Origin: Acidithiobacillus ferruginosus
GTDB lineage: Bacteria > Pseudomonadota > Gammaproteobacteria > Acidithiobacillales > Acidithiobacillaceae
Length of the DNA stretch: 64,000 nt
Assembly: GCF_018854495.1 (NCBI RefSeq)
Contig: NZ_JABBDR010000167.1
Span: forward strand, 13,258 to 77,257
Direction of reading: 5' to 3'
The position numbers and the translations under genes were made by a program. This document shows positions 24,678 to 36,584 of this stretch, piece by piece (within the stretch, counting starts at the first letter, position 1; every line of letters begins with the position of its first letter). The notes beneath the pieces are model-generated. The model had not been told where the DNA came from and made no database searches. It saw only the letters and a program-made list of their open reading frames with translations.

Positions 24678-26066
24678 ATGGGCTATGACTTGCGGGAGCG
24701 GGCATTAGGCGCCTACCTGGGATTGGCGGTCGGGGATGCCCTGGGCGCGACGGTGGAGTTCATGAGTCCCACGGAAATCCGGGAGGAATATGGTGTTCAC
24801 CGCAATATGATCGGTGGCGGCTGGCTGCATTTGCGCCCCGGACAAGTGACCGACGATACTCAGATGTGCCTGGTGCTGGGTCGGAGCATCCTTGCCGATG
24901 AACAATGGTCCGTTACCCGCTTTGGCGCGGGGATGGTGCAGTGGTTGCGCAGTCATCCCGTGGATGTGGGCAATACCTGCCGCCGGGGAATCCGGCGCTT
25001 CATGCTCAACGGCAGTACCGCCGCCGAACCGGCGGAATGGGATGCCGGCAATGGTGCGTGTGTGCGCAACCTCCCCGTGGTGCTGGCCACCCTGAACGCC
25101 CCTGCGACCTTCCGGCGAATCAGTGTGGAACAGGCGCACCTGACCCACCATCACCCGCTGTCGGATGTCGCGACCCTAACGCTGGGAGAGATGTTACGCT
25201 GCGCGCTGCGCGGTGACGGCATTTCATCCGTGCGGCGCCTGGCGGATGCACTGGTTGCACGGTACCCGGAATTCGATTTCAAAGAAATTCCCCAGGCACC
25301 TACGCCCTATATTGTGGATACGGTGCGTGCCGTCCTGTACGCGCTGCTTCATACCGATAATTTTAAAGACTGCCTGATCACGGTGGTCAACCAGGGTGGG
25401 GATGCGGACACCACAGGCGCCCTCGTGGGCATGCTGGCGGGAGGCCTGTACGGGACTTACGGGCTTCCCGGTGCCTGGCTGCAGCGTCTGGATCCCGCGG
25501 TTCAGAAAGAAATCGCGGCACAGGTGGACCCGCTTCTGGCCTGGGGTGAGCGGACGGATCATGAGCAGTTGTCGGCCAGCACGCCGCTGCGTGTCTTATT
25601 TTACGAAAAACCAGGCTGTGCCAATAATGCGCGGCAGAAAGCGCTGTTGACGGCCGCCGGCTGTGTGCTGGAGGTGCATGACTTATTGCAGACCACATGG
25701 ACGGCGGAAACCCTGCGCCCCTATTTTGCGGATCGACCCGTCGCCGAGTGGTTCAACCCCGCCTCGCCGCGGGTAAAGTCCGGAGAGATCGTTCCGGAGG
25801 CGTTTACGGAAGCCGGGGCACTCGCCGCGATGCTGTTGGACCCGCTTCTCATTCGTCGCCCGCTCATGGAAGCCGGGGGCGCCAAAATCGCCGGCTTTTC
25901 CGAGGATCAATTACGCCTGTGGACATCCGTATCTCCTGACGTGTATGCTGAAGTCACTGGCGTCGCTACAGACAATTGTCGACGATCGGTCCCCTGCCCA
26001 AGCGTCAGGCCGGCCCGCAGTCTCACCAAAACTCCAGCCGCCTCGTCCCACGCCAACGCCTCCTGA
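24678..26066 (+). CDS. draG: DraG ADP-ribosylglycohydrolase fused to NifO/ArsC-like domain
   Basis: A 462-residue fusion. Residues 1-295 are DraG, which removes ADP-ribose from NifH: the binuclear metal site residues are in GLAVGDALGATVEF, the VTDDTQM motif and the C-terminal GGDADTTGALVG. Residues about 310-425 are a nitrogenase-associated ArsC/thioredoxin-fold domain of the NifO type (LFYEKPGCANNARQKALL, then EWFNPASPRVKSGE and DPLLIRRPLM). NifO is a separate protein in Azotobacter. The frame is open throughout with no sign of a sequencing join. The last about 35 residues are low-complexity and end 26 bases before nifA. Confidence 0.92.
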   Translation: MGYDLRERALGAYLGLAVGDALGATVEFMSPTEIREEYGVHRNMIGGGWLHLRPGQVTDDTQMCLVLGRSILADEQWSVTRFGAGMVQWLRSHPVDVGNTCRRGIRRFMLNGSTAAEPAEWDAGNGACVRNLPVVLATLNAPATFRRISVEQAHLTHHHPLSDVATLTLGEMLRCALRGDGISSVRRLADALVARYPEFDFKEIPQAPTPYIVDTVRAVLYALLHTDNFKDCLITVVNQGGDADTTGALVGMLAGGLYGTYGLPGAWLQRLDPAVQKEIAAQVDPLLAWGERTDHEQLSASTPLRVLFYEKPGCANNARQKALLTAAGCVLEVHDLLQTTWTAETLRPYFADRPVAEWFNPASPRVKSGEIVPEAFTEAGALAAMLLDPLLIRRPLMEAGGAKIAGFSEDQLRLWTSVSPDVYAEVTGVATDNCRRSVPCPSVRPARSLTKTPAASSHANAS

Positions 26067-26091
26067 GCGCTGTAGAGAAGAGGGCCCCATC

Positions 26092-27729
26092 ATGAAAGAT
26101 CGCGTAACACCCAACCATTTTCAGGAGCTGACGACCATCTATGAGGTGAGTAAGGTGCTCAGCTCTTCCATGGATCTTGAACACACCCTGAACGATGTTC
26201 TAAAGACGCTGGAAAGCCATCTGCATATCTCACCGTCCATGATCGTATTGCGCATGAACGAGGAAATAGTGGGGGTAATCGCGGCCACAGGGTTGTCCGT
26301 TGCGGAAATAGAACGGGGGCGTTATCGGTTAGGGGAGGGGATGATCGGCAAGATCATGCGTGCCGGCATGCCGATAGTGATTCCTGATGTCTCTCAGGAA
26401 CCGGCTTTTCTGCACCGCGCCTTTGAACCGGAGATCAGTCAGCGCTTGCATGCCTTTGTAGGGGTGCCGATCAAGGTGGGATATGAGTGTATCGGTGTGC
26501 TCGCCATCTATCGCAGTGAGCGACACAAGGGCGTGAGTTTCCGTTCCGATGTCCGCTTGTTGCAGATGATCGCCAATCTGGTGGGACAGACCGTTAATCT
26601 GCATCAGGGTATCTCGGCGGAACGAAACCGTCTTTTGCAGGAAAAGCATCGTCTGCAGAAGGAGTTACAGAAGCGCTACAGCATCAAGAACGTCATCGGC
26701 AACAGCCGGGCCATGCAGGCGGTATTCGCCGATGTGCATCAGGCGGCACCGGGCAAGGCGACCGTGTTGCTGCGCGGTGAGTCGGGCACCGGCAAGGAAG
26801 TCATCGCCCGCGCCATTCATTATCTCAGCCCCCGTCGCGACAAAGCCTTTGTTTCGCTCAATTGCGCGGCGCTCCCGGAAAGCATTCTCGAGTCAGAACT
26901 CTTCGGACATGAGCGCGGCGCGTTTACCGGCGCCACCCAGGAGCGCAAAGGGCGCTTTGAACTGGCAGATGGCGGCACGCTGTTTCTCGATGAGATCGGC
27001 GATATCTCTCCGGCTTTTCAGGCCAAGCTCTTACGGGTGTTACAGGAGCGTGAATTCGAGCGGGTAGGCGGAACTCAGACCCGGCGGGTCAATGTGCGCA
27101 TTATCACTGCCACCAATCGCAATCTCGAAGAGGCGGTGAGCAAGGGCGAGTTCCGCGCCGATCTGTACTACCGGATCAATGTCGTCAGTATTTTCTTGCC
27201 CCCACTGCGGGAGCGTCGTGAGGACATTCCCGCCCTGATCGAGCACTTCCTTACCCGTTACAACGCGGAGAACCAGCGCAAACTGAGCCTCACCCCGGAA
27301 GCCTTGCAAACCATGGTGTCCTGCTACTGGCCGGGTAACGTGCGGGAATTGGAAAACTGCGTCGAACGCACCGCCACCATGATGCGCGGCGATATCATCC
27401 GCAATCTGGACGTGCCCTGTCAGCGCAATCAGTGCCTGTCCATGGCCTTGCGGCCGCTGGAAGGGAGTCATCCCATCGTCACCATGAAGCTGTCGAGCGG
27501 CGGGAGTGTTCCGCCTCCTGCAACACCTGATGTGGAGGAGCAAGTGGCGGATGCATCCGGGGCTGGTGACGGGGAAGGTTCCTTGCCTTTGTCGGAGCGG
27601 GATCGCCTGATCCAGGCCATGGACCGCTGTGGCTGGGTACAAGCCAAAGCTGCCCGTTTATTGGGGACGACCACCCGCAAACTCGGTTATGCCCTCAATA
27701 AGCATGGCGTAGAAGTTAAAAAACTCTAA
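26092..27729 (+). CDS. nifA: Nif-specific sigma-54 activator NifA (oxygen-sensitive type)
   Basis: A 545-residue enhancer-binding protein that turns on nif promoters. It has a GAF domain (residues about 20-165), an AAA+ domain (about 195-430) with Walker [15 protein letters not shown] and Walker B TLFLDEIG, and a Fis-type HTH at the C-terminus ([18 protein letters not shown]). The complete cysteine signature C411-x11-C423-x19-C443-x4-C448 at the AAA+ end and linker is that of oxygen/redox-sensitive NifA proteins that work without NifL, and no nifL is in the window. ATG 26092 is the start that matches the family N-terminus; the open frame extends further upstream within draG. The 324-base gap after it holds only the nifB promoter. 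Confidence 0.96.
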
Positions 27730-27826: not shown

Positions 27827-27842
27827 TGTCCGGTTTTCGACA
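27827..27842. promoter_or_regulatory. NifA upstream activator sequence for nifB
   Basis: TGT-CCGGTTTTCG-ACA, exact TGT-N10-ACA, centred about 128 bases before the predicted nifB transcription start. Confidence 0.78.
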
Positions 27843-27936: not shown

Positions 27937-27952
27937 TGGCATCACTTTTGCT
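27937..27952 (+). promoter_or_regulatory. Sigma-54 promoter of the nifB unit
   Basis: TGGCATCACTTTTGCT-type element: GG at 27938-27939 and GC at 27950-27951 separated by 10 bases. Predicted start near 27963, about 90 bases before nifB. Upstream of it, GC-rich inverted repeats at 27747-27768 after nifA are not followed by a T run. Confidence 0.87.
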
Positions 27953-28053: not shown

Positions 28054-29622
28054 ATGGCATCCCAAATAATTTCTCTTTCCAGTATTGCCACACCCAATAA
28101 CGGGGTGGATCTGGATGAGATCATGCAGCAGAAGGCAGAACACCAAGGTTGTGGTACGAGCGGTGGTTCCGGCAAGGCCAGTTGTGGCACCGGAGCGGGG
28201 CAGGGAGATCTGGCACCGGAGATATGGGAAAAGGTCAAGAATCACCCCTGCTATAGCGAAGAAGCGCATCATCATTACGCCCGTATGCATGTTGCGGTGG
28301 CGCCCGCCTGCAATATCCAATGCAATTACTGTAACCGCAAATATGACTGCGCCAACGAAAGTCGGCCGGGTGTCGTCAGTGAAAAACTGACGCCGGAGCA
28401 AGCGGCTAAAAAGGTGCTGGCCGTGGCTTCCACCATTCCGCAAATGACGGTGTTGGGTATTGCTGGTCCGGGTGATCCCCTGGCCAACCCCGAGAAAACT
28501 TTCAAGACCTTTGAACTGATCTCGAAAACAGCGCCGGATATCAAGCTCTGCCTGTCCACCAATGGCCTGGCACTCCCTGACCATGTGGATACCATTGCCG
28601 GCTTTAATGTGGATCACGTCACCATCACCATCAATATGGTGGATGCGGATGTGGGCGCGCTGATCTATCCCTGGATTTATTACAAAAACAAGCGGTACAA
28701 GGGGCGTGAAGCGGCGCAGATACTCACCGACCGGCAAATGCAGGGACTGGAAATGCTGACCGAGCGCGGCATTCTCTGTAAGGTGAATTCGGTCATGATC
28801 CCCGGCATCAATGATCACCATCTCGTGGAAGTCAACCGGGCAGTCAAGAGCCGCGGCGCTTTCCTTCACAACATCATGCCCCTGATTTCCGCCCCGGAAC
28901 ATGGCACCGTTTTCGGCTTGAACGGCCAGCGCGGCCCGACCGCGCAGGAACTAAAGGCCCTGCAGGACAGTTGCGAAGGCGAAATGAACATGATGCGCCA
29001 CTGTCGGCAATGCCGGGCGGACGCCGTGGGTCTGCTGGGTGAAGATCGTTCGGCAGAATTCACGACCGAAGCCGTCATGGCGATGGATGTGGAATATGAC
29101 CTGGAATCGCGCAAGGCCTATCAGTCGCTGGTGGAGCAGGAACGTCAGGCGACGGCGGACGCCAAGCGGGCGGAACTGGAAACCCTGGCCGGCGAGCAAT
29201 CCGATGTCAAAATTCTCATCGCGGTGGCGACCAAGGGCAGCGGGCGGGTCAATGAGCACTTCGGTCATGCCACCGAGTTTCAGATTTATGAGGCGAGTGC
29301 GTCCGGGGCGAAGTTTGTCGGCCACCGTCGCGTGGACCTCTATTGCCAGGGCGGTTATGGCGAAGAGGAAGCCCTGGAAACCACCATCATCCGCGCGATC
29401 AACGATTGTACGGCAGTTTTTGTGGCCAAGATCGGTGGCTGTCCGAAAGCCTCGCTGGAGGCGGCCGGAATCGATGCGGTGGATCGCTACGCTTTTGAAT
29501 ATATCGAGCAGTCAGTCATCGCCTACTATCGGGATTATCTCGATAACATCCGTAGCGGGGCCATTGTCCATGGCCAGCGCGGGGATGCGGAGATCCGGCA
29601 GGGCGCGTACATCGCTGCATAA
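28054..29622 (+). CDS. nifB: FeMo-co precursor synthase NifB (radical SAM, NifX-like tail)
   Basis: A 522-residue enzyme that fuses two [4Fe-4S] units with a SAM-derived carbon into NifB-co, the first committed FeMo-co step. The radical-SAM motif is CNIQCNYC (C-x3-C-x2-C) near residue 88, with additional cluster cysteines in the N-terminal [12 protein letters not shown] region and in [11 protein letters not shown]. Residues about 385-500 form the NifX-like carrier domain ([16 protein letters not shown]), as in most proteobacterial NifB. It heads a long plus-strand operon. Confidence 0.97.
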
Positions 29623-29671: not shown

Positions 29672-29890
29672 ATGGCTTTTAAAATCGTTAGTTCCCAATG
29701 CACCAGTTGTTCGGCCTGTGAACCGGAATGTCCGAATATGGCGATTTCCGAAAAGAATGGCACCTTTGTGATCGATCCAGCCAAGTGTACAGAATGCATA
29801 AATTATTTCGATGAACCGCAGTGTGTGGCGGTATGTCCGGTGGACGACACCTGCATCATTGATAACAACTATCCCCGTTACGTCGCTTAG
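29672..29890 (+). CDS. fdxN: 2[4Fe-4S] ferredoxin FdxN
   Basis: A 72-residue bacterial ferredoxin with cluster motifs [11 protein letters not shown] and a second set with a long insert ([17 protein letters not shown]), as in nif-linked FdxN proteins. AAGGAG lies upstream of ATG 29672. FdxN supplies electrons to NifB for FeMo-co synthesis and in some species to nitrogenase. It lies 49 bases after nifB and 9 bases before iscA2. Confidence 0.93.
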
Positions 29891-29899
29891 GAGTCTGTC

Positions 29900-30235
29900 A
29901 TGGAACTCACCTTTACGCCTAAAGCGGAACGCTTTATCCAGCGGATGATTACCTTTGGCGGAGGAAATGCCGCCAGTGCTTTTCGCCTTGCGGTAAAGCC
30001 AGGCGGGTGCTCCGGCCTCTCTTACGATTTTCGCATTGTCGACGCGGCGGAGCCCGGCGATGTGGCCATCACCAGCAATGGCATTCCGGTACTGCTGGAA
30101 CAGAAGAGTGTCCCTTTTCTCAACGGAGTCGTCGTCGATTGCGAGGACAGCCTGATGAATACCGGGTTGGTCTTTACCAATCCCAATGCGGCGGCCAGTT
30201 GTGGTTGCGGAACGTCATTTACACCCAAGGAATAA
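29900..30235 (+). CDS. A-type Fe-S carrier, second nif-linked IscA/HesB
   Basis: A 111-residue A-type protein with conserved cysteines in PGGCSGLSYDF and the C-terminal CGCGTSF. It differs clearly from the copy at 11844-12212, so it is not a recent duplication. Its position right after fdxN suggests Fe-S supply for NifB or for the ferredoxins of this operon. Confidence 0.9.
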   Translation: MELTFTPKAERFIQRMITFGGGNAASAFRLAVKPGGCSGLSYDFRIVDAAEPGDVAITSNGIPVLLEQKSVPFLNGVVVDCEDSLMNTGLVFTNPNAAASCGCGTSFTPKE

Positions 30236-30275: not shown

Positions 30276-30506
30276 ATGGAAACCTGGATCGTTCATCATA
30301 CGAATACGACTATCCATCGTTGCGCAGCGAATACAGCAGCACTCCCCCCGCATCTCGACGATATCGATTTCTGCGGTGCGGAGATCTTTACGCGCATACC
30401 CGCGAGGGAGCAGCGTCATCTCGCACAGGCTTACAGCAGTTATGCCTGCTGTGAGGAATGTGAGGCGGCTCTGCTCCATCCCCTGAAGCATAGGGGTGCG
30501 GCATGA
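30276..30506 (+). CDS. Small Cys/His-rich protein of unknown function
   Basis: A 76-residue protein, not recognised. Cysteines at 16, 33, 58, 59 and 62 (CC-x2-C near the C-terminus) and paired histidines at 7-8 suggest metal or cluster binding. GGGAGG lies 5 bases before the ATG, and the stop overlaps the next gene by 4 bases (ATGA), so it is a real operon member. Confidence 0.75.
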   Translation: METWIVHHTNTTIHRCAANTAALPPHLDDIDFCGAEIFTRIPAREQRHLAQAYSSYACCEECEAALLHPLKHRGAA

Positions 30507-31015
30507 GCAATATCTGGGACGATGAATGGTTGAACCGCCGCTATTACGAAGGCCTGTTGCCAGAAGCAGCGGAACGGCATCTGCATCTTGCTGCGCGCTC
30601 CTATGCGGACGAAGTCTGTGCCGAAGATCACCTGATGGATGCCATCGCCATCGCGCCCGAACACATGGTCGTTTATCTGGGTTTATACAAATTTTATTTC
30701 TATAAGGGGCGGCTGCGCGAGGCGCTGGCTACGGCCCGCATCTGTCTGCAGCGCAGCGCCGCGGAATTGGGTATTGATCCGGACTGGCGCAAGGTAAGGG
30801 AGCGGCAGGCGGACTTTGGCAGTTTTGATGCTCCGCAGGCGCGCTTCTATATGTTCGTGCTGAAAGCCTATGGTTACCTGCATTTGCGTCTGGGTCACCT
30901 GGCTACGGGCAGCAAAATCATGGACAAACTCATCGAATTGGACCCGACGGATAAAATACAGGCCCGGGTACTGCTGGAAGTCCTGCAAAAAAAAGAGGAA
31001 GACGACGATGAGTGA
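30503..31015 (+). CDS. TPR-like nif-operon protein
   Basis: A 170-residue soluble helical protein with a TPR-type pattern (APEHMVVYLGLYKFYFYKGR and the C-terminal GYLHLRLGHLATGSKIMDKL). It starts in the 4-base overlap with the preceding gene and overlaps the LRV gene by 8 bases. TPR proteins serve as binding platforms; a chaperone-like role for a nitrogenase component is possible but not shown. Confidence 0.8.
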   Translation: MSNIWDDEWLNRRYYEGLLPEAAERHLHLAARSYADEVCAEDHLMDAIAIAPEHMVVYLGLYKFYFYKGRLREALATARICLQRSAAELGIDPDWRKVRERQADFGSFDAPQARFYMFVLKAYGYLHLRLGHLATGSKIMDKLIELDPTDKIQARVLLEVLQKKEEDDDE

Positions 31016-31799
31016 TCCGGACGAGGCCATTGACTGGCAGGGCTGCGCCGTCTCCTGTGAAGCCTGCCCTGAGCGCGGGATCCCAGGGCTGAAGTGCGAA
31101 CCGTTGCATGCCTGTATGCATGATCGTTACGCCAAAAGGGTGGATCGCTTTTTTCGCTGGAATCCGCAGATCGCCAAGGATTATCTGCAACACGGCTACT
31201 TTGAGGTGCGGGCCTGCGCTGCGCGTTATGCGGATATCTTTCATCTGCCGGCACTCATGAACGATCCGGACGAAACCGTGCGCTGGGCAGTAGCGCAGCG
31301 GCTTCCGCAACGCTATCTGCTGCGGATGATCCACGATCCGCATCGGGAAGTGCGTATCCGGGTAGCTGCGCGGCTGGATGAACGTAACCTGCCTGCCATG
31401 ATGCACGATGCGGATTATTACGTGCGCCTGGAAGTGGTGCGTCGCCTGCCCAAAGGTCTATTGCCGCTCATGATGCATGATTCCGATGTGGAGGTCCGGC
31501 GGGTTGTGGCCAAACGCATCGGCGTGGATGCCCTGGTCAAAATGCTGCAGGACGACGACCCCGGGGTCCGTCTGGATGCCATTGAACGGGTACCGGTGTC
31601 GATCCTTTCCACGCTGATTGACGATGCGGACTGGCGTATCCGCTACGAGGTGGCGGCGCGCGGGAGCCGGGAAGCGGTAATCCGCCTGTTGGCAGACGAG
31701 GATTATGAGGTGCGTCGTTGCGCCGCAGAACGCTTGGGGAAAGGCGAACCGTTTTCCAGGCAACGATTGCCAGGGGAGGATGAATTATGGCCGGTATGA
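31008..31799 (+). CDS. Leucine-rich-repeat-variant (LRV) Fe-S protein
   Basis: A 263-residue protein. The N-terminus carries a cysteine cluster (C-x3-C-x2-C in CAVSCEAC, then KCEPLHAC) expected to hold a [4Fe-4S] cluster. The rest is a run of about eight 24-residue LRV repeats (for example DPHREVRIRVAARLDERNL and DPGVRLDAIERVP). This is the architecture of the LRV Fe-S protein described from the Azotobacter nif region. Function unknown; start and stop overlap both neighbours (8 and 13 bases). Confidence 0.9.
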   Translation: MSDPDEAIDWQGCAVSCEACPERGIPGLKCEPLHACMHDRYAKRVDRFFRWNPQIAKDYLQHGYFEVRACAARYADIFHLPALMNDPDETVRWAVAQRLPQRYLLRMIHDPHREVRIRVAARLDERNLPAMMHDADYYVRLEVVRRLPKGLLPLMMHDSDVEVRRVVAKRIGVDALVKMLQDDDPGVRLDAIERVPVSILSTLIDDADWRIRYEVAARGSREAVIRLLADEDYEVRRCAAERLGKGEPFSRQRLPGEDELWPV

Positions 31800-32089
31800 G
31801 CAGAGATAGCGCGACCGTCGAGCTTGGCGCAGAACCCGAGTTCAATTATGGGGATAAAGTCCGTTCCCGCAAGCATGTGAAAAATGACGGGACATTCACC
31901 GGTGCGGAAATTGGCGAGGTGATTGTTACCAAAGGCGATGTCGGTTTTATCATCAGTATCGGCACCTATTTGCAACAATTTTATATTTATGGCGTGGATT
32001 TTTATGAGCGTGGTCATCTGGTCGGCATGAAGGGCCGTGAACTGGAATTGATCGAATACAATCCGAGTCAGGAGGAGAAAATCTCATGA
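31787..32089 (+). CDS. nifZ: NifZ-domain protein (first)
   Basis: A 100-residue protein with the NifZ domain (FNYGDKVRSRKHVKNDGTF, then EVIVTKGDVGFI and FYIYGVDF). NifZ assists formation of the second P-cluster in the MoFe protein. GGGGAGGA lies 6 bases before ATG 31787. Azotobacter NifZ is longer (about 160 residues); here the equivalent seems divided over two adjacent genes. Confidence 0.92.
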   Translation: MAGMSRDSATVELGAEPEFNYGDKVRSRKHVKNDGTFTGAEIGEVIVTKGDVGFIISIGTYLQQFYIYGVDFYERGHLVGMKGRELELIEYNPSQEEKIS

Positions 32090-32340
32090 TGGATCTGCGT
32101 CCTCCCCGATTTGATTGGGGTCTCAGGGTATTGGCTGGCGATGATATTTTTAATGATGGGACGTATCCGGGGGAGGCCGAAGGGGCCTTGCTGGTAGCCA
32201 AGGACAGTCCGGGAGAAATCGTGCGGGTAGGACATCATGAAGAGAGCAACACGCCCCTCTACCTCGTGGAGTTTGCCAACGGTATGGTGGTGGGTTGTCT
32301 GGAAGAGGAAATTCTACCCGTCGAAGGGCCGAAGCCATGA
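32086..32340 (+). CDS. NifZ-domain protein (second)
   Basis: An 84-residue protein also of NifZ type (FDWGLRVLAGDDIFNDGTYP, then LYLVEFANGMVVGCLEEE). It overlaps the first NifZ gene by 4 bases and nifS2 by 4 bases. The two NifZ-type proteins are only distantly alike, so a split of a longer two-part NifZ or an old duplication are both possible. Confidence 0.85.
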   Translation: MMDLRPPRFDWGLRVLAGDDIFNDGTYPGEAEGALLVAKDSPGEIVRVGHHEESNTPLYLVEFANGMVVGCLEEEILPVEGPKP

Positions 32341-33518
32341 ACATGACGCGCAGCATTTATCTCGATAATAATGCGACAACGGCCTTGGCACCGGCGGCAC
32401 TGGACGCCATGTTGCCCTATTTATCCACAGAATATGCCAATCCTTCCAGTGCCTCCGAAGCGGGTGTAAGCGTCAAGAAAGCGTTGGGTGAGGCGCGGGT
32501 CGCGGTGGCCAAATTGTTGGGCTCCTCACCTGCGGAACTGATTTTTACCAGTGGCGCGACGGAGAGCAATCATACGGCGATCCTGGGCGCGCTCTCCCTG
32601 ACCAAAGGCAAACGCCATCTGATTACCAGCCAGGTGGAACACCCCTCCGTACTTTTGATGTGTCAGCATCTGGAACGTCTCGGAATAGAGGTAAGTTACC
32701 TGCCGGTGGATGAAGAGGGGCGCCTGGACCTGGAAGACCTGCGCATAGCCTTGCGTCCGGATACCGCCCTGGTTTCGCTGATGTGGGCAAACAATGAAAC
32801 CGGTGTGCTCTTTCCTGTTGTTGAAGCGGCTGCCATGGCGCATGACGCGGGGGCTTTTTTCCATACGGATGCGACCCAGGTGCTTGGCAAGCTGTCTGTG
32901 AATGCCGCCGCTTCCGGCGTGGATTTTTTATCCTGCTCGGCACATAAGATTCATGGCCCCAAGGGCGTTGGGGCACTGTTCGTCCGCAAAGGCATTGCCT
33001 TACCACCCTTGTTTCATGGTCATCAGGAACGGGGACGGCGGGGCGGTACCGAGAATGTTCCTGCCATTGCCGGTTTTGCGGCCGCTGCCCGTCTGCTCAC
33101 CAATATCGAACACGAGGCGCATTACCTGCGGGAATTGCGTGATCATTTTGAACAAGGTCTGTTGGCGTTCATGCCCTGCGCGCGGATCCATGGGCAGGAA
33201 GCCGAGCGTTTACCCAATACCAGCAATGTCGGGTTTATCGCACTCGACGGTGAAGAACTGCTCTATCGCCTGGAGCAGGAGGGCATTACGGCTGCAGCCG
33301 GTGCCGCTTGTGCTGCTGGCGGGCAGGAACCTTCCCATGTGCTTACGGCCATGGGTTTTTCTAAAACCGCGGTGCTGTCCTCGCTGCGTTTCTCCTTTGG
33401 CCGCCAGAACCGGTCGGAGGATGTGGAGCGGCTGCTCCGTGTATTGCCAGGCATCCTGCTGGGCATGATGGACATGCCACCGGTGAAGGCCGGAGTCCCG
33501 ATTTCTTGCGCACCATAA
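32337..33518 (+). CDS. Second NifS-type cysteine desulfurase
   Basis: A 393-residue PLP-dependent desulfurase. It has the PLP lysine in SCSAHKIHGPKGVGAL and a catalytic cysteine in AGAACAAGGQEPSHVL, which differs from the SGSACTSGS loop of the first NifS. It starts in the ATGA overlap with the preceding gene. It probably gives sulfur to NifB or the local A-type carrier; no nifU accompanies it. Confidence 0.92.
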   Translation: MNMTRSIYLDNNATTALAPAALDAMLPYLSTEYANPSSASEAGVSVKKALGEARVAVAKLLGSSPAELIFTSGATESNHTAILGALSLTKGKRHLITSQVEHPSVLLMCQHLERLGIEVSYLPVDEEGRLDLEDLRIALRPDTALVSLMWANNETGVLFPVVEAAAMAHDAGAFFHTDATQVLGKLSVNAAASGVDFLSCSAHKIHGPKGVGALFVRKGIALPPLFHGHQERGRRGGTENVPAIAGFAAAARLLTNIEHEAHYLRELRDHFEQGLLAFMPCARIHGQEAERLPNTSNVGFIALDGEELLYRLEQEGITAAAGAACAAGGQEPSHVLTAMGFSKTAVLSSLRFSFGRQNRSEDVERLLRVLPGILLGMMDMPPVKAGVPISCAP

Positions 33519-33533
33519 AATAAGGAATACCCC

Positions 33534-33743
33534 ATGAAGGTGATGATTCGTAAAAACGCCGCTGGTGAGTTGACGGCGTATGTGCCCAAGAAAGACCTTG
33601 AGGAACCGATTACCGAGTGTCAGAAGCCGGAACTGTGGGGCGGGGTGGTGACGCTGGCGAACGGCTGGCGCCTGGAATTGCCGGAGATGCCCGGTGATAC
33701 CCGTCTGCCTATTACCGTAGAAGCGCGTCGATTGGAGGGCTGA
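33534..33743 (+). CDS. nifT: NifT/FixU family protein
   Basis: A 69-residue protein matching NifT/FixU (MKVMIRKNAAGELTAYVPKKD, then LWGGVVTLANGWRLELP). It is a constant small member of nif clusters with no settled function. It follows nifS2 by 15 bases with AAGGAAT-type ribosome site upstream. Confidence 0.9.
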   Translation: MKVMIRKNAAGELTAYVPKKDLEEPITECQKPELWGGVVTLANGWRLELPEMPGDTRLPITVEARRLEG

Positions 33744-33747
33744 GAGG

Positions 33748-34020
33748 ATGGAACTCACTGACGAAGATCTCGCGGTGCTTTTTGATCTGGGCCGAAATGC
33801 CTGCCGGTCTGGTGAGGGTATCCTGCCTGTTTTGCGTACCCGCTTCCCCGGACTCCCCATCACCCAATGTCCCGCCGGCGATGTCAACGACGAGCCCTTC
33901 CGTACCGGCGAATATTTTGACCTGCATTGGTTGGATACCCGCGACCATTGTCCGAAAATCACGTCCGATTCCCAGGTGGCAACCGGCCTGTTGCTGGCCA
34001 TGCATCGGAGTACGACATGA
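33748..34020 (+). CDS. Small nif-cluster protein, DUF6129-like
   Basis: A 90-residue protein resembling, from memory, the DUF6129 family of nif clusters (long helix, then RTRFPGLPITQCPAGDVND and a C-terminal ATGLLLAM). It is 4 bases after nifT and couples to the next gene through an ATGA overlap. Function unknown. Confidence 0.7.
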   Translation: MELTDEDLAVLFDLGRNACRSGEGILPVLRTRFPGLPITQCPAGDVNDEPFRTGEYFDLHWLDTRDHCPKITSDSQVATGLLLAMHRSTT

Positions 34021-35159
34021 CTGCGCTGGAAATCCCACTCTCGGACCCGGACATCAGCACCAGCGAACTGGAGGCCGTAGAGGCGGTATTGCGTTCCACC
34101 CGCATCAGCGCGGGGGAACAAGTGGAGGCCTTCGAAGCGGCCTTTGCTGCCTATCACGGGCGGCGCTATGCCGTCGCCGTCGCCAGTCCGACTCTGGCGT
34201 TGATGCTCTGTCTGCGCGCCTACGAACTCAGGGGGGGCGATGAAGTCATTCTCTCGCCTTATAGCTGGTGGCAGATCGGGCATGCCCTCGCGTGGTACGG
34301 GGTTCAGCCGGTATTCGCGGATATCGACTACTACTCCGGCACGATCTCCCCCAAAGGGGCTGAGACCCTGATCACGGAGAAAACCGGGGCGATCCTCGCC
34401 GGTAATACCAAGGGGCATCCCGCCTTCTGGCAGGAACTGCGCACGATGGCCAACGAAAATGGCCTGATTCTGCTGGAAGATTCGACGGAGGCCATCGGCT
34501 CCCGTTATCAGGACAAACTGGTCGGTAGCTTCGGAGACAGCGCTATTTTTGCCTTTGCCCAGCCCTCTGCCCTGGTCTGTGGTGAAGGTGCCATGATCGT
34601 CACGGACGATACCGAAACCGTCAGCCGTCTGCGCCAATATCGCGCGCGGGGCATCAGTGATCGGGGCTCGGTGGTGGCGCCTACTCGTCCACCCCTGCAG
34701 GCAGAAATGAGCGATATCCAGGCCACCATAGGGCTGGTCCAGCTTGCCCGTCTGGACGGTATTCTGCAACGCCGACAGCAGGTGGAAGCACTCTACTTTG
34801 AGTACATGAAGTCCTTTGAAGGAATCAAGGATCCCTACCATGGGCCGGATGCCACCGCGGTGCACTGGTTTGTATACGAAGTACATCTTGGTACCCGGTT
34901 CAGCCGTAGCAGTCGGGATGCCATCGTCACCGATCTCCGCGCCCAGGGTATCGAGGCGGCCTCTTACTGCCTGCCCATGCACACCCAATCCTATTATCGC
35001 GAGCGCGGCGGCGGTCACTGCCCGACCGCCGTGCGGGTGTCCGACCGCACCCTGATCCTGCCTTTTCACCCGCGTCTGGGAGAAGAGGAGATCGCCTTTA
35101 TCATCGAAACCTTGAAGGATGCATCCGTTAATGTGGGTGCTGGTGCTGCCATTTATTAG
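34017..35159 (+). CDS. DegT/DnrJ/EryC1-fold protein lacking the PLP lysine
   Basis: A 380-residue protein of the sugar aminotransferase fold (RISAGEQVEAFEAAFAAYHG start, LEDSTEAIGSRY for the pyridine-N aspartate region). The segment that normally reads FSF-x3-K-x4-GEGG reads FAFAQPSALVCGEGAMI: the Schiff-base lysine position is serine 184. It therefore should not work as a normal transaminase; a dehydratase-type or binding role is possible. Start at ATG 34017 overlaps the previous gene; a sugar pathway is not present nearby, only nif genes. Confidence 0.85.
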   Translation: MTALEIPLSDPDISTSELEAVEAVLRSTRISAGEQVEAFEAAFAAYHGRRYAVAVASPTLALMLCLRAYELRGGDEVILSPYSWWQIGHALAWYGVQPVFADIDYYSGTISPKGAETLITEKTGAILAGNTKGHPAFWQELRTMANENGLILLEDSTEAIGSRYQDKLVGSFGDSAIFAFAQPSALVCGEGAMIVTDDTETVSRLRQYRARGISDRGSVVAPTRPPLQAEMSDIQATIGLVQLARLDGILQRRQQVEALYFEYMKSFEGIKDPYHGPDATAVHWFVYEVHLGTRFSRSSRDAIVTDLRAQGIEAASYCLPMHTQSYYRERGGGHCPTAVRVSDRTLILPFHPRLGEEEIAFIIETLKDASVNVGAGAAIY

Positions 35160-35200: not shown

Positions 35201-35506
35201 ATGCCCATTATCACCATCAAACCCAGTGGTAAAACCGTCGAGATGCCCGTGGGGGCCAGTCTCGCCGCCGCGGTGATCGCTGCCGGTGAACCCATGGTCC
35301 TGAAGTGCGAAGGCAAAGGCGAATGCGATAGCTGCCATATTTTCGTCCAGGAAGGGCGGAAGAGCGTGTCGAAAATCCAGCGTCTGGAAAATGAGCGACT
35401 GGATACCATCGTTGGCGTCGGCAGCAAGTCCCGTCTGGCCTGTCAGGCCATGATTGGTGAAGAAGACGTCGTCATCGAGCTTTTGGGATTTTCTTCGGGC
35501 TTATAA
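35201..35506 (+). CDS. [2Fe-2S] ferredoxin, nif-linked (copy 3)
   Basis: A 101-residue [2Fe-2S] ferredoxin with ligands C-x5-C-x2-C in CEGKGECDSC and a later cysteine in RLACQAM. It is the third [2Fe-2S] ferredoxin of the island but differs from the pair at 18135-18848 (shorter, one residue more between the first ligands). AGAGGAG lies upstream. It may carry electrons to nitrogenase or to an enzyme of this operon. Confidence 0.9.
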   Translation: MPIITIKPSGKTVEMPVGASLAAAVIAAGEPMVLKCEGKGECDSCHIFVQEGRKSVSKIQRLENERLDTIVGVGSKSRLACQAMIGEEDVVIELLGFSSGL

Positions 35507-35516
35507 GGAGGATGTG

Positions 35517-35741
35517 ATGGAACAGTCGCTCGTCATCATTCATGTACGTTTTGCCAACGATGGCAGGGTGCGGGAAATTGGCGAGTGTCCCAGCGGGACC
35601 AGTCCTCAGGACTGGTTCAATGCGCTGAGCAGACACTCTGCCAATGGTTATGAATCTCTCTCCGGGGGAAGGGGCATTTTTCGCCTCGAACCAGCGGTCT
35701 TCGAACAGGTCAAGGCTGCGGTTTTTTCCCTCGCAACATAA
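35517..35741 (+). CDS. Small protein of unknown function
   Basis: A 74-residue acidic protein, not recognised. AAGGAGG lies 5 bases before ATG 35517, 10 bases after the ferredoxin stop, so it is a genuine operon member. One cysteine (EIGECPSG) and an amphipathic C-terminal helix are visible. It ends 12 bases before the SIR2-like gene. Confidence 0.7.
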   Translation: MEQSLVIIHVRFANDGRVREIGECPSGTSPQDWFNALSRHSANGYESLSGGRGIFRLEPAVFEQVKAAVFSLAT

Positions 35742-35753
35742 GGAAGCATGATC

Positions 35754-36584
35754 ATGGACAAGGATCTTTCGGAAATCTTCAGCGGCCTTGCGGAAGGACG
35801 CATCATTCCGTATCTCGGTCCCGGCCTGTTGCCGGAGGCCGGAGCCACCCTGCCCAGCGGGTTGTCGGCATTGGCGGAAGTACTCAGCGGCCAGGTGACG
35901 GTGCCTCACAAGGTCCGGCGCAACCTCACCGGGGCCGCGCAATATATCGAGAACTTCAAGCACCGCAAGACCCTCGTGGGCATGATGGACAAGGCCTTTG
36001 CCGGGGATCCGCCGATCCATCCTTTGCAGCGCGACCTGGCCGCCCGGAAACTCCCGTTGATCGTCCACCTCTGGTACGACAACGGTATGGCCAAAGCGTT
36101 GGCCGAACAGGGTGCACGCTGGGGCCGTATCCAGGGACTCAGTCAAACCGAGCATTTCGGCCACTGGACGGGATACATGGATGCCGAGGGCCAGTCGGTC
36201 GAAGCCGCAGTGGCCGCCCAATGGGACACGATACTGTATGAGCCTTGGGGCTCACAAAGTCCGGCCAACAATTACCTCGTTTCGGATACGGATTTTGTCG
36301 AAGTGCTGACGGAAATTGACATTCAGACGCCTATTCCGGAGATCGTCCAACAAATCCGCTCCGGGCGCCATTTTCTTTTTGTCGGATGCCGTTTCAATGA
36401 TCAGTTGCAGCGCAATTTCGCCCGCCAGATCATGAAGCGTTCATCGGATCGCCATTGGGCGTTGATAGAGGCACCGCTGACCCGGAACGAAGCGCGTTTT
36501 GTTCGCGAGCAGGGGATTCAGGTGCTCCAGGTGCCCACTGGCGTCTTGTCGGGTGGTGGGACCGCCGTGGCCAGGGCGGGGTAG
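35754..36584 (+). CDS. SIR2-like protein at the end of the nifB unit
   Basis: A 276-residue protein with a SIR2-like Rossmann start (GRIIPYLGPGLLPEAGA) and a central HFLFVGCRFNDQLQRNF segment, the pattern of the SIR2_2 family that may bind NAD or ADP-ribose. It lacks the zinc-binding cysteines of sirtuin deacetylases. ATG 35754 (MDKDLSEIFSG) is preferred over 35748 because AGGAA is 8 bases away. It ends 51 bases before the convergent modD. Target and reaction unknown; an ADP-ribose link to DraT/DraG control is only a thought. Confidence 0.75.
   Translation: MDKDLSEIFSGLAEGRIIPYLGPGLLPEAGATLPSGLSALAEVLSGQVTVPHKVRRNLTGAAQYIENFKHRKTLVGMMDKAFAGDPPIHPLQRDLAARKLPLIVHLWYDNGMAKALAEQGARWGRIQGLSQTEHFGHWTGYMDAEGQSVEAAVAAQWDTILYEPWGSQSPANNYLVSDTDFVEVLTEIDIQTPIPEIVQQIRSGRHFLFVGCRFNDQLQRNFARQIMKRSSDRHWALIEAPLTRNEARFVREQGIQVLQVPTGVLSGGGTAVARAG

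Follow-up and report, generated by a model that had tools for sequence, protein, structure and literature searches.

Sugar aminotransferases such as ArnB, PseC and GDP-perosamine synthase belong to the DegT/DnrJ/EryC1/StrS family (PF01041) and carry a Schiff-base lysine as well as a serine that binds the phosphate of pyridoxal 5'-phosphate (PLP). The same fold without the lysine is found in ColD and E1, 3-dehydratases that depend on pyridoxamine 5'-phosphate (PMP). In dideoxysugar biosynthesis E1 works with E3, as a dehydratase with a 2Fe-2S-type redox partner. The nif clusters harbor PLP enzymes of their own, among them NifS, a catalytic desulfurase of PLP fold type I from a different family. 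Here, we describe a DegT-fold protein encoded in the same gene run as a nifS-like gene, within 64,000 nucleotides of Acidithiobacillus ferruginosus contig NZ_JABBDR010000167.1 (the window). This protein, hereafter nif-DegT, has neither the Schiff-base lysine nor the phosphate serine, and it represents a new nif-specific, lysine-less pseudo-aminotransferase subfamily within the known PF01041 family. Members of this conserved subfamily, present in nif operons of methanotrophs, acidophiles, photosynthetic bradyrhizobia and others, are annotated as aminotransferases, a function hardly possible without the lysine.

According to the available text of PMC3899966, the nitrogen-fixation genes that photosynthetic bradyrhizobia of the nod-independent type have in common and that B. 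japonicum USDA110 lacks include BRADO5410, for a 2Fe-2S ferredoxin, and BRADO5411, for a putative aminotransferase of the DegT family; a missing lysine of BRADO5411 is not mentioned in that text and no function is proposed. BRADO5411 appears to be the same gene as nif-DegT by its name and neighbors (2Fe-2S ferredoxin, NifZ-domain, leucine-rich-repeat-variant (LRV), tetratricopeptide-repeat (TPR) and SufA-like proteins) rather than by alignment, and the corresponding protein of strain BTAi1 falls inside the nif clade described below. A literature search, with most subscription papers outside its reach, returned no report of the missing lysine or of a function for this protein.

Loss of the Schiff-base lysine and of the phosphate serine

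The reading frame of nif-DegT translates to 380 amino acids containing FAFAQPSALVCGEGAMI and LEDSTEAIGSRY. It matches PF01041 over its full length (286.5 bits, cut-off 19.8), and an NCBIfam scan gave no named aminotransferase model above its cut-off. In the HMMER alignment with ArnB, AIFSFHAIKNITCAEGG stands opposite AIFAFAQPSALVCGEGA, so that K188 of ArnB is aligned with S184 of nif-DegT. The aminotransferase fold is intact in the structure model, for which we used the deeper second one, the first having a predicted local distance difference test score (pLDDT) of 70; nif-DegT is thus a PF01041 member by both sequence and fold. A preliminary description of the window had read serine 184 in the place of the Schiff-base lysine, with the GEG motif and the aspartate region retained, and had noted an ATGA coupling to the upstream small gene and a ferredoxin gene downstream; all of this was borne out. 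Its further proposal, that this DegT-fold protein without the lysine is particular to nif operons, also gained support; no homologue examined below has a lysine at position 184.

Several partly overlapping samples were compared. Protein searches gave 120 listed of 2,982 and 120 listed of 729 matches; among the matches listed, the closest genus-named relatives are from Acidithiobacillus. A locus scan by the clade's own motifs, which is blind to members without these motifs since it was built on them, yielded 363 confirmed stretches, the best 80 of which were used for the locus counts (L008, L010 and L017 among them share a single metagenome bin). The resulting set of 317 rows is partly redundant, as the same protein can appear twice, as a P and as an L row, and it includes one sequence cut by a contig end (L017) and one broken copy (L070). 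For comparison, we drew 18 non-nif paralogues from six genomes, one of them that of the window.

Position 184 is never a lysine, arginine or histidine in the query and the 120 homologues listed out of 2,982 (Gly 70, Ser 46, Leu 3, Ala 2) or in the 80 loci (Ser 38, Gly 31, Phe 7, Leu 4). The 317 rows show the same picture (Ser 141, Gly 139, Ala 16, Phe 9, Leu 8, Gln 4, with neither lysine nor histidine), whereas the non-nif paralogues have lysine in 15 cases and histidine in three. The absence of the lysine is a family trait, beyond chance. Nor is the lysine the sole loss: the phosphate-binding serine, present in 18/18 paralogues, is missing from all 317 rows, where its position (A179 in the window) holds Asp (295 rows), Ala (16), Gly (5) or Glu (1). 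Substitution by another lysine was considered and judged unlikely, since only K271 and K367 are lysines in at least 90% of the rows and both lie in the C-terminal part.

By alignment, on which all pocket assignments here are based, other pocket residues are kept. The aspartate that contacts the pyridine nitrogen (D155, equivalent to D170 of Spr1654) is conserved in 316/317 rows, and H322, common to 14/18 paralogues, in 304/317. Position 158, equivalent to H173 of Spr1654, the histidine to O3' of PLP, is a glutamate in 317/317 rows. The lysine paralogues vary here (Gln 7, Glu 3, His 2, Cys 2, Ala 1), and, as glutamate also occurs in 3/15 of them and in 2/3 of the histidine-type paralogues, E158 was dropped as a novelty of the clade.

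The clade has also acquired residues of its own. Indeed, 31 positions show at least 97% fixation in the nif clade, with the same residue in no more than 20% of the 15 lysine paralogues, including N130, H134, H290, G292, R294, F295 and the C-terminal tail, and nif-DegT has an asparagine where 11/15 lysine paralogues carry the HxxG histidine. The VHLGTRFS motif and the GAGAAIY tail, which, together with the nif context, distinguish nif-DegT from the sugar aminotransferases, are each found in 314/317 rows; of the three rows lacking the tail, one is cut by a contig end, one is a broken copy and one is a variant. Within the PLP domain, the same residue occupies each of positions 130, 134, 155 and 158 in 316-317 of the 317 rows. 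Identity to the window protein is 48-63% outside the Acidithiobacillaceae-like rows. Purifying selection acts on nif-DegT: compared with three Acidithiobacillus relatives, the ratio of nonsynonymous to synonymous substitution rates (dN/dS) lies at 0.050-0.056, and a more remote relative gives 0.105; one further pair, the fifth, was saturated. Its history is one of loss together with gain of residues, not of decay.

In the phylogenetic tree, all 23 nif rows group together (100/100), the stem of this clade has a length of 1.6 changes per site, and the lysine and histidine rows lie outside it. The histidine group, whose dehydratase type was assigned by motif alone, is a clade of its own (98/95), separate from the nif clade. 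Two rows from Candidatus Methylacidiphilaceae (Verrucomicrobiota; L030 and L084) group with the Acidithiobacillus-type sequences (94/96, unstarred branch), which hints at transfer.

Distribution and link with nitrogenase

To follow the distribution of nif-DegT, we sampled 398 genomes of the phylum, including that of the window, and scored up to four candidates in each. Eight genomes gave profile matches: six are clade members, all in nifD-positive genomes, and the remaining two are lysine proteins whose genomes gave no nifD match. Within its own genus (17 genomes), the protein occurs in 8/8 nifD-positive genomes; seven genomes have neither, and two incomplete ones (81% and 85%) have nif-DegT with no nifD match at 1e-200. 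A further 117 genomes belong to the genus of G236, taken as Bradyrhizobium since the tree pairs its protein with the BTAi1 sequence (100/94) and nodC is present in 62/117. There, a full copy was found in 44/76 nifD-positive and 0/41 nifD-negative genomes, and all 46 carriers possess nitrogenase genes. nif-DegT is thus restricted to nif clusters.

In the same genus, nifV scored over its cut-off in 41/44 nifD-positive genomes with nif-DegT versus 17/32 without it (p = 7e-5) and, within the nodC-positive genomes, in 30/33 versus 16/29 (p = 0.003), kinship being ignored in both comparisons. According to the available text of PMC3899966, nifV is tied to ex planta fixation. This association within one genus makes nif-DegT a candidate member of the genes by which rhizobia that can fix nitrogen outside the plant differ from those that cannot.

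Some copies in this group are damaged. The frame of Bradyrhizobium pachyrhizi (L070) stops early, the locus of Bradyrhizobium sp. BWA-3-5 (L136/H4) has no annotated gene, and two partial matches occur among the 117 genomes. Both named strains have nif genes, and one of them is a root-nodule isolate according to its record.

Possible functions of nif-DegT

From the residues lost, we infer that nif-DegT has lost PLP catalysis. The explanation we prefer, to which we give somewhat less than an even chance, is that this nif-specific pseudo-aminotransferase promotes the maturation or stability of Mo-nitrogenase independently of PLP, with a non-PLP ligand in its altered pocket. The protein has kept the sugar-aminotransferase fold, the usual internal aldimine being impossible without the Schiff-base lysine, and has gained residues invariant within the clade in its PLP domain, VHLGTRFS motif and C-terminal tail. 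Produced together with the nifB, nifZ and nifT products, it could hold the ligand in the pocket, dock on a Nif partner through its tail and surface, and act in nitrogenase maturation or stability. Since nif-DegT is associated with nifV, its main role may lie where nitrogenase is made without the help of a host plant. A bolder proposal is that the pocket, after loss of the lysine and phosphate serine and gain of N130, H134 and mostly D179 beside D155, has been rebuilt for a ligand specific to nitrogenase, for example homocitrate, a metal ion or a cluster precursor. nif-DegT would then be a new type of carrier or insertase derived from a PLP-enzyme scaffold and required for host-free nitrogenase, a proposal that we consider improbable.

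Several observations weigh against the maturation factor explanation or against its emphasis on fixation in the absence of a host. We know of no phenotype for nif-DegT, and it is present in only 6 of the 41 genomes, among the 398, with nifD over the cut-off; nitrogenase can therefore generally do without it. The nifV association may reflect shared cluster architecture only, given that kinship was ignored. A full copy occurs in 33/62 nodC-positive versus 11/14 nodC-negative nifD-positive genomes, a difference that is not significant (p = 0.13); the idea of a loss in nodulators was abandoned, as nifV separates the genomes better. According to the available text of PMC3899966, the Azorhizobium caulinodans cluster is up-regulated in bacteroids and its authors see a probable role in symbiotic fixation; BRADO5414, 5416, 5418 and 5424 form the operon that also occurs in that species, nif-DegT not being named there. 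Finally, of the eight PLP contacts named for Spr1654 in the available text of PMC5936713 (the phosphate serine is S194), only the lysine and this serine are plainly lost. Since just two contacts are plainly lost and E158 is weak evidence, the pocket may still accept PLP or PMP; Lys-to-Ala mutants of ArnB (4oca) and WbpE (3nys) are described with bound PLP in their PDB titles.

Non-covalent binding of PMP or PLP is the starting point of another explanation, close to the chemistry of lysine-less dehydratases put forward in the preliminary description: nif-DegT would perform PMP/radical or dehydratase-like reactions with electrons from the neighboring 2Fe-2S ferredoxin, by analogy with the E1/E3 pair. 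We judge it unlikely. The dehydratase-type paralogues, typed by motif, have histidine at the lysine position and keep the phosphate serine (3/3), as is reflected for E1 in the PDB title 'E1 Dehydrase H220K Mutant', whereas the nif clade has neither and branches separately. Position 184 varies among Ser, Gly, Ala, Phe, Leu and Gln, and therefore does not provide a common catalytic residue. No sugar gene is found among the annotated neighbors in the Methylococcus (L134) and Paraburkholderia (L135) clusters. The ferredoxin is indeed a common neighbor, lying at most 700 bases downstream of nif-DegT in 71/80 loci, but it is not an obligatory partner, since it is not beside nif-DegT in L030, L032, L077 and L084, where the next gene leaves no space for it. 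Because the defining residues of PLP aminotransferases and of ColD/E1 dehydratases were tested and found missing, we assign nif-DegT to neither class.

A metabolite sensor, whose old substrate pocket would bind homocitrate, cysteine, 2-oxoglutarate or glutamate and signal to a nif partner, appears rather unlikely, though the conserved H322, the nifV association and the ATGA overlap with the gene of a DUF6129-like protein, whose Cys and His-Cys are invariant, all speak for it. On the other hand, this coupled pair is not obligatory: among the 41 nifD-positive genomes, the DUF6129-like gene was found in 5/6 of those with nif-DegT, and in four without nif-DegT (G040, G101, G400 and G421) it also occurs, some 3 kb away from nifD. 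PLP-fold proteins that serve protein-protein regulation exist, and the clade-specific motif and tail and the proximity of NifZ and NifT would also suit a pure scaffold or chaperone for NifB, NifDK or NifS with a vestigial pocket. However, the near-complete fixation of positions 130, 134, 155 and 158 exceeds what we would expect for a vestigial site, and we consider such a role quite improbable. As for a decaying sugar-aminotransferase relic hitch-hiking in nif clusters, the damaged Bradyrhizobium copies would fit, but the low dN/dS, the 48-63% identity and the tail retained across the clade largely refute this reading, and we attach hardly any probability to it.

Gene organization around nif-DegT

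The genes from nifB to the SIR2-like gene lie on a single strand with small gaps or overlaps (Table 1), in the order nifB, 4Fe-4S ferredoxin, iscA-like, small open frame, TPR-like, LRV, nifZ, nifZ, nifS-like, nifT, DUF6129-like, nif-DegT, ferredoxin, small gene and SIR2_2; nifH, D, K, E and N are on the opposite strand. The DUF6129-like gene and nif-DegT overlap by ATGA at 34017-34020. Upstream of the run, at distances from nifB that would suit their roles, are TGGCAT-N5-TTGC and TGT-N10-ACA sequences, which we take to be the patterns of sigma54 promoters and NifA boxes. Since both are no commoner than chance in the window (nine matches versus 6.9 expected, and nine versus 9.5, respectively), an operon under NifA control is presumed.

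Table 1. Features of the nif gene run and its upstream region in the window
Feature	Coordinates	Strand	Evidence and remarks
nifA	25945..27729	+	profile match; upstream of run, same strand
NifA upstream-activator-like TGT-N10-ACA	27827..27842	+	~95 bp before sigma54-like site; position only
sigma54-type promoter-like TGGCAT-N5-TTGC	27937..27951	+	upstream of nifB; position only
nifB	28054..29622	+	TIGR01290, 694.8 bits; first in run
4Fe-4S ferredoxin (named FdxN from position after nifB)	29672..29890	+	best YfhL-type, 82 bits, just under cut-off
IscA/HesB-like Fe-S assembly accessory protein	29900..30235	+	TIGR00049, 94.8 bits (cut-off 58.8)
small open frame	30276-30506		tblastn match in just 6/80 related loci; lineage-specific or no gene
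TPR-like protein	30503..31015	+	two TPR matches, both under cut-off
LRV protein	31008..31799	+	order/position only, versus annotated Methylococcus plasmid cluster
NifZ-domain protein 1	31787..32089	+	profile match
NifZ-domain protein 2	32086..32340	+	profile match
nifS-like cysteine desulfurase	32337..33518	+	NifS, 474.7 bits, below cut-off 530.75
nifT	33534..33743	+	profile match
DUF6129-like small protein, 90 amino acids	33748..34020	+	PF19624, 14.2 bits, below cut-off 23.6
nif-DegT (lysine-less DegT-fold protein)	34017..35159	+	380 amino acids; S184, A179, D155, GEG; profile, alignment and model evidence
2Fe-2S ferredoxin	35201..35506	+	Fer2, 33.3 bits (cut-off 21); fdx_isc, 61.8 bits, below 132.1
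small protein without family match	35517..35741	+	between ferredoxin and SIR2-like gene
SIR2-like (SIR2_2) protein	35748..36584	+	profile match; last of same-strand run

This neighborhood is widely shared. At least one of nifB, nifZ and nifT is on the contig in 79/80 loci, the exception (L021) being a 6.3-kb contig with the other neighbors. The DUF6129-like gene lies at most 500 bases upstream of nif-DegT in 78/80 loci; L030 and L084, both verrucomicrobial nif clusters, gave no match for it or for the ferredoxin. The window member is a divergent DUF6129 relative, a Bradyrhizobium counterpart scoring 25.1 bits against PF19624. C41 and H67-C68 are invariant in 23 aligned sequences and could possibly constitute a metal or thiol site. 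Together with nif-DegT and the 2Fe-2S ferredoxin, this protein makes a short testable list for moving nif clusters between organisms.

The small gene downstream of the ferredoxin and the SIR2-like gene each have counterparts in 71/80 loci. The latter lies at most 1200 bases downstream of nif-DegT in 43 loci and is elsewhere located before nifB; a SIR2-like gene is also reported in the Zymomonas mobilis nif cluster in the available text of PMC8594446. On the Paraburkholderia sprentiae plasmid (L135), nif-DegT is annotated at full length and the nifS-like gene as a short piece, and the annotation beside nif-DegT shows no ferredoxin, small gene or SIR2-like gene. The nifZ and nifS-like genes of the window overlap and leave no space between them; in the Methylococcus and Paraburkholderia clusters, a DUF3024 protein is encoded at this place.
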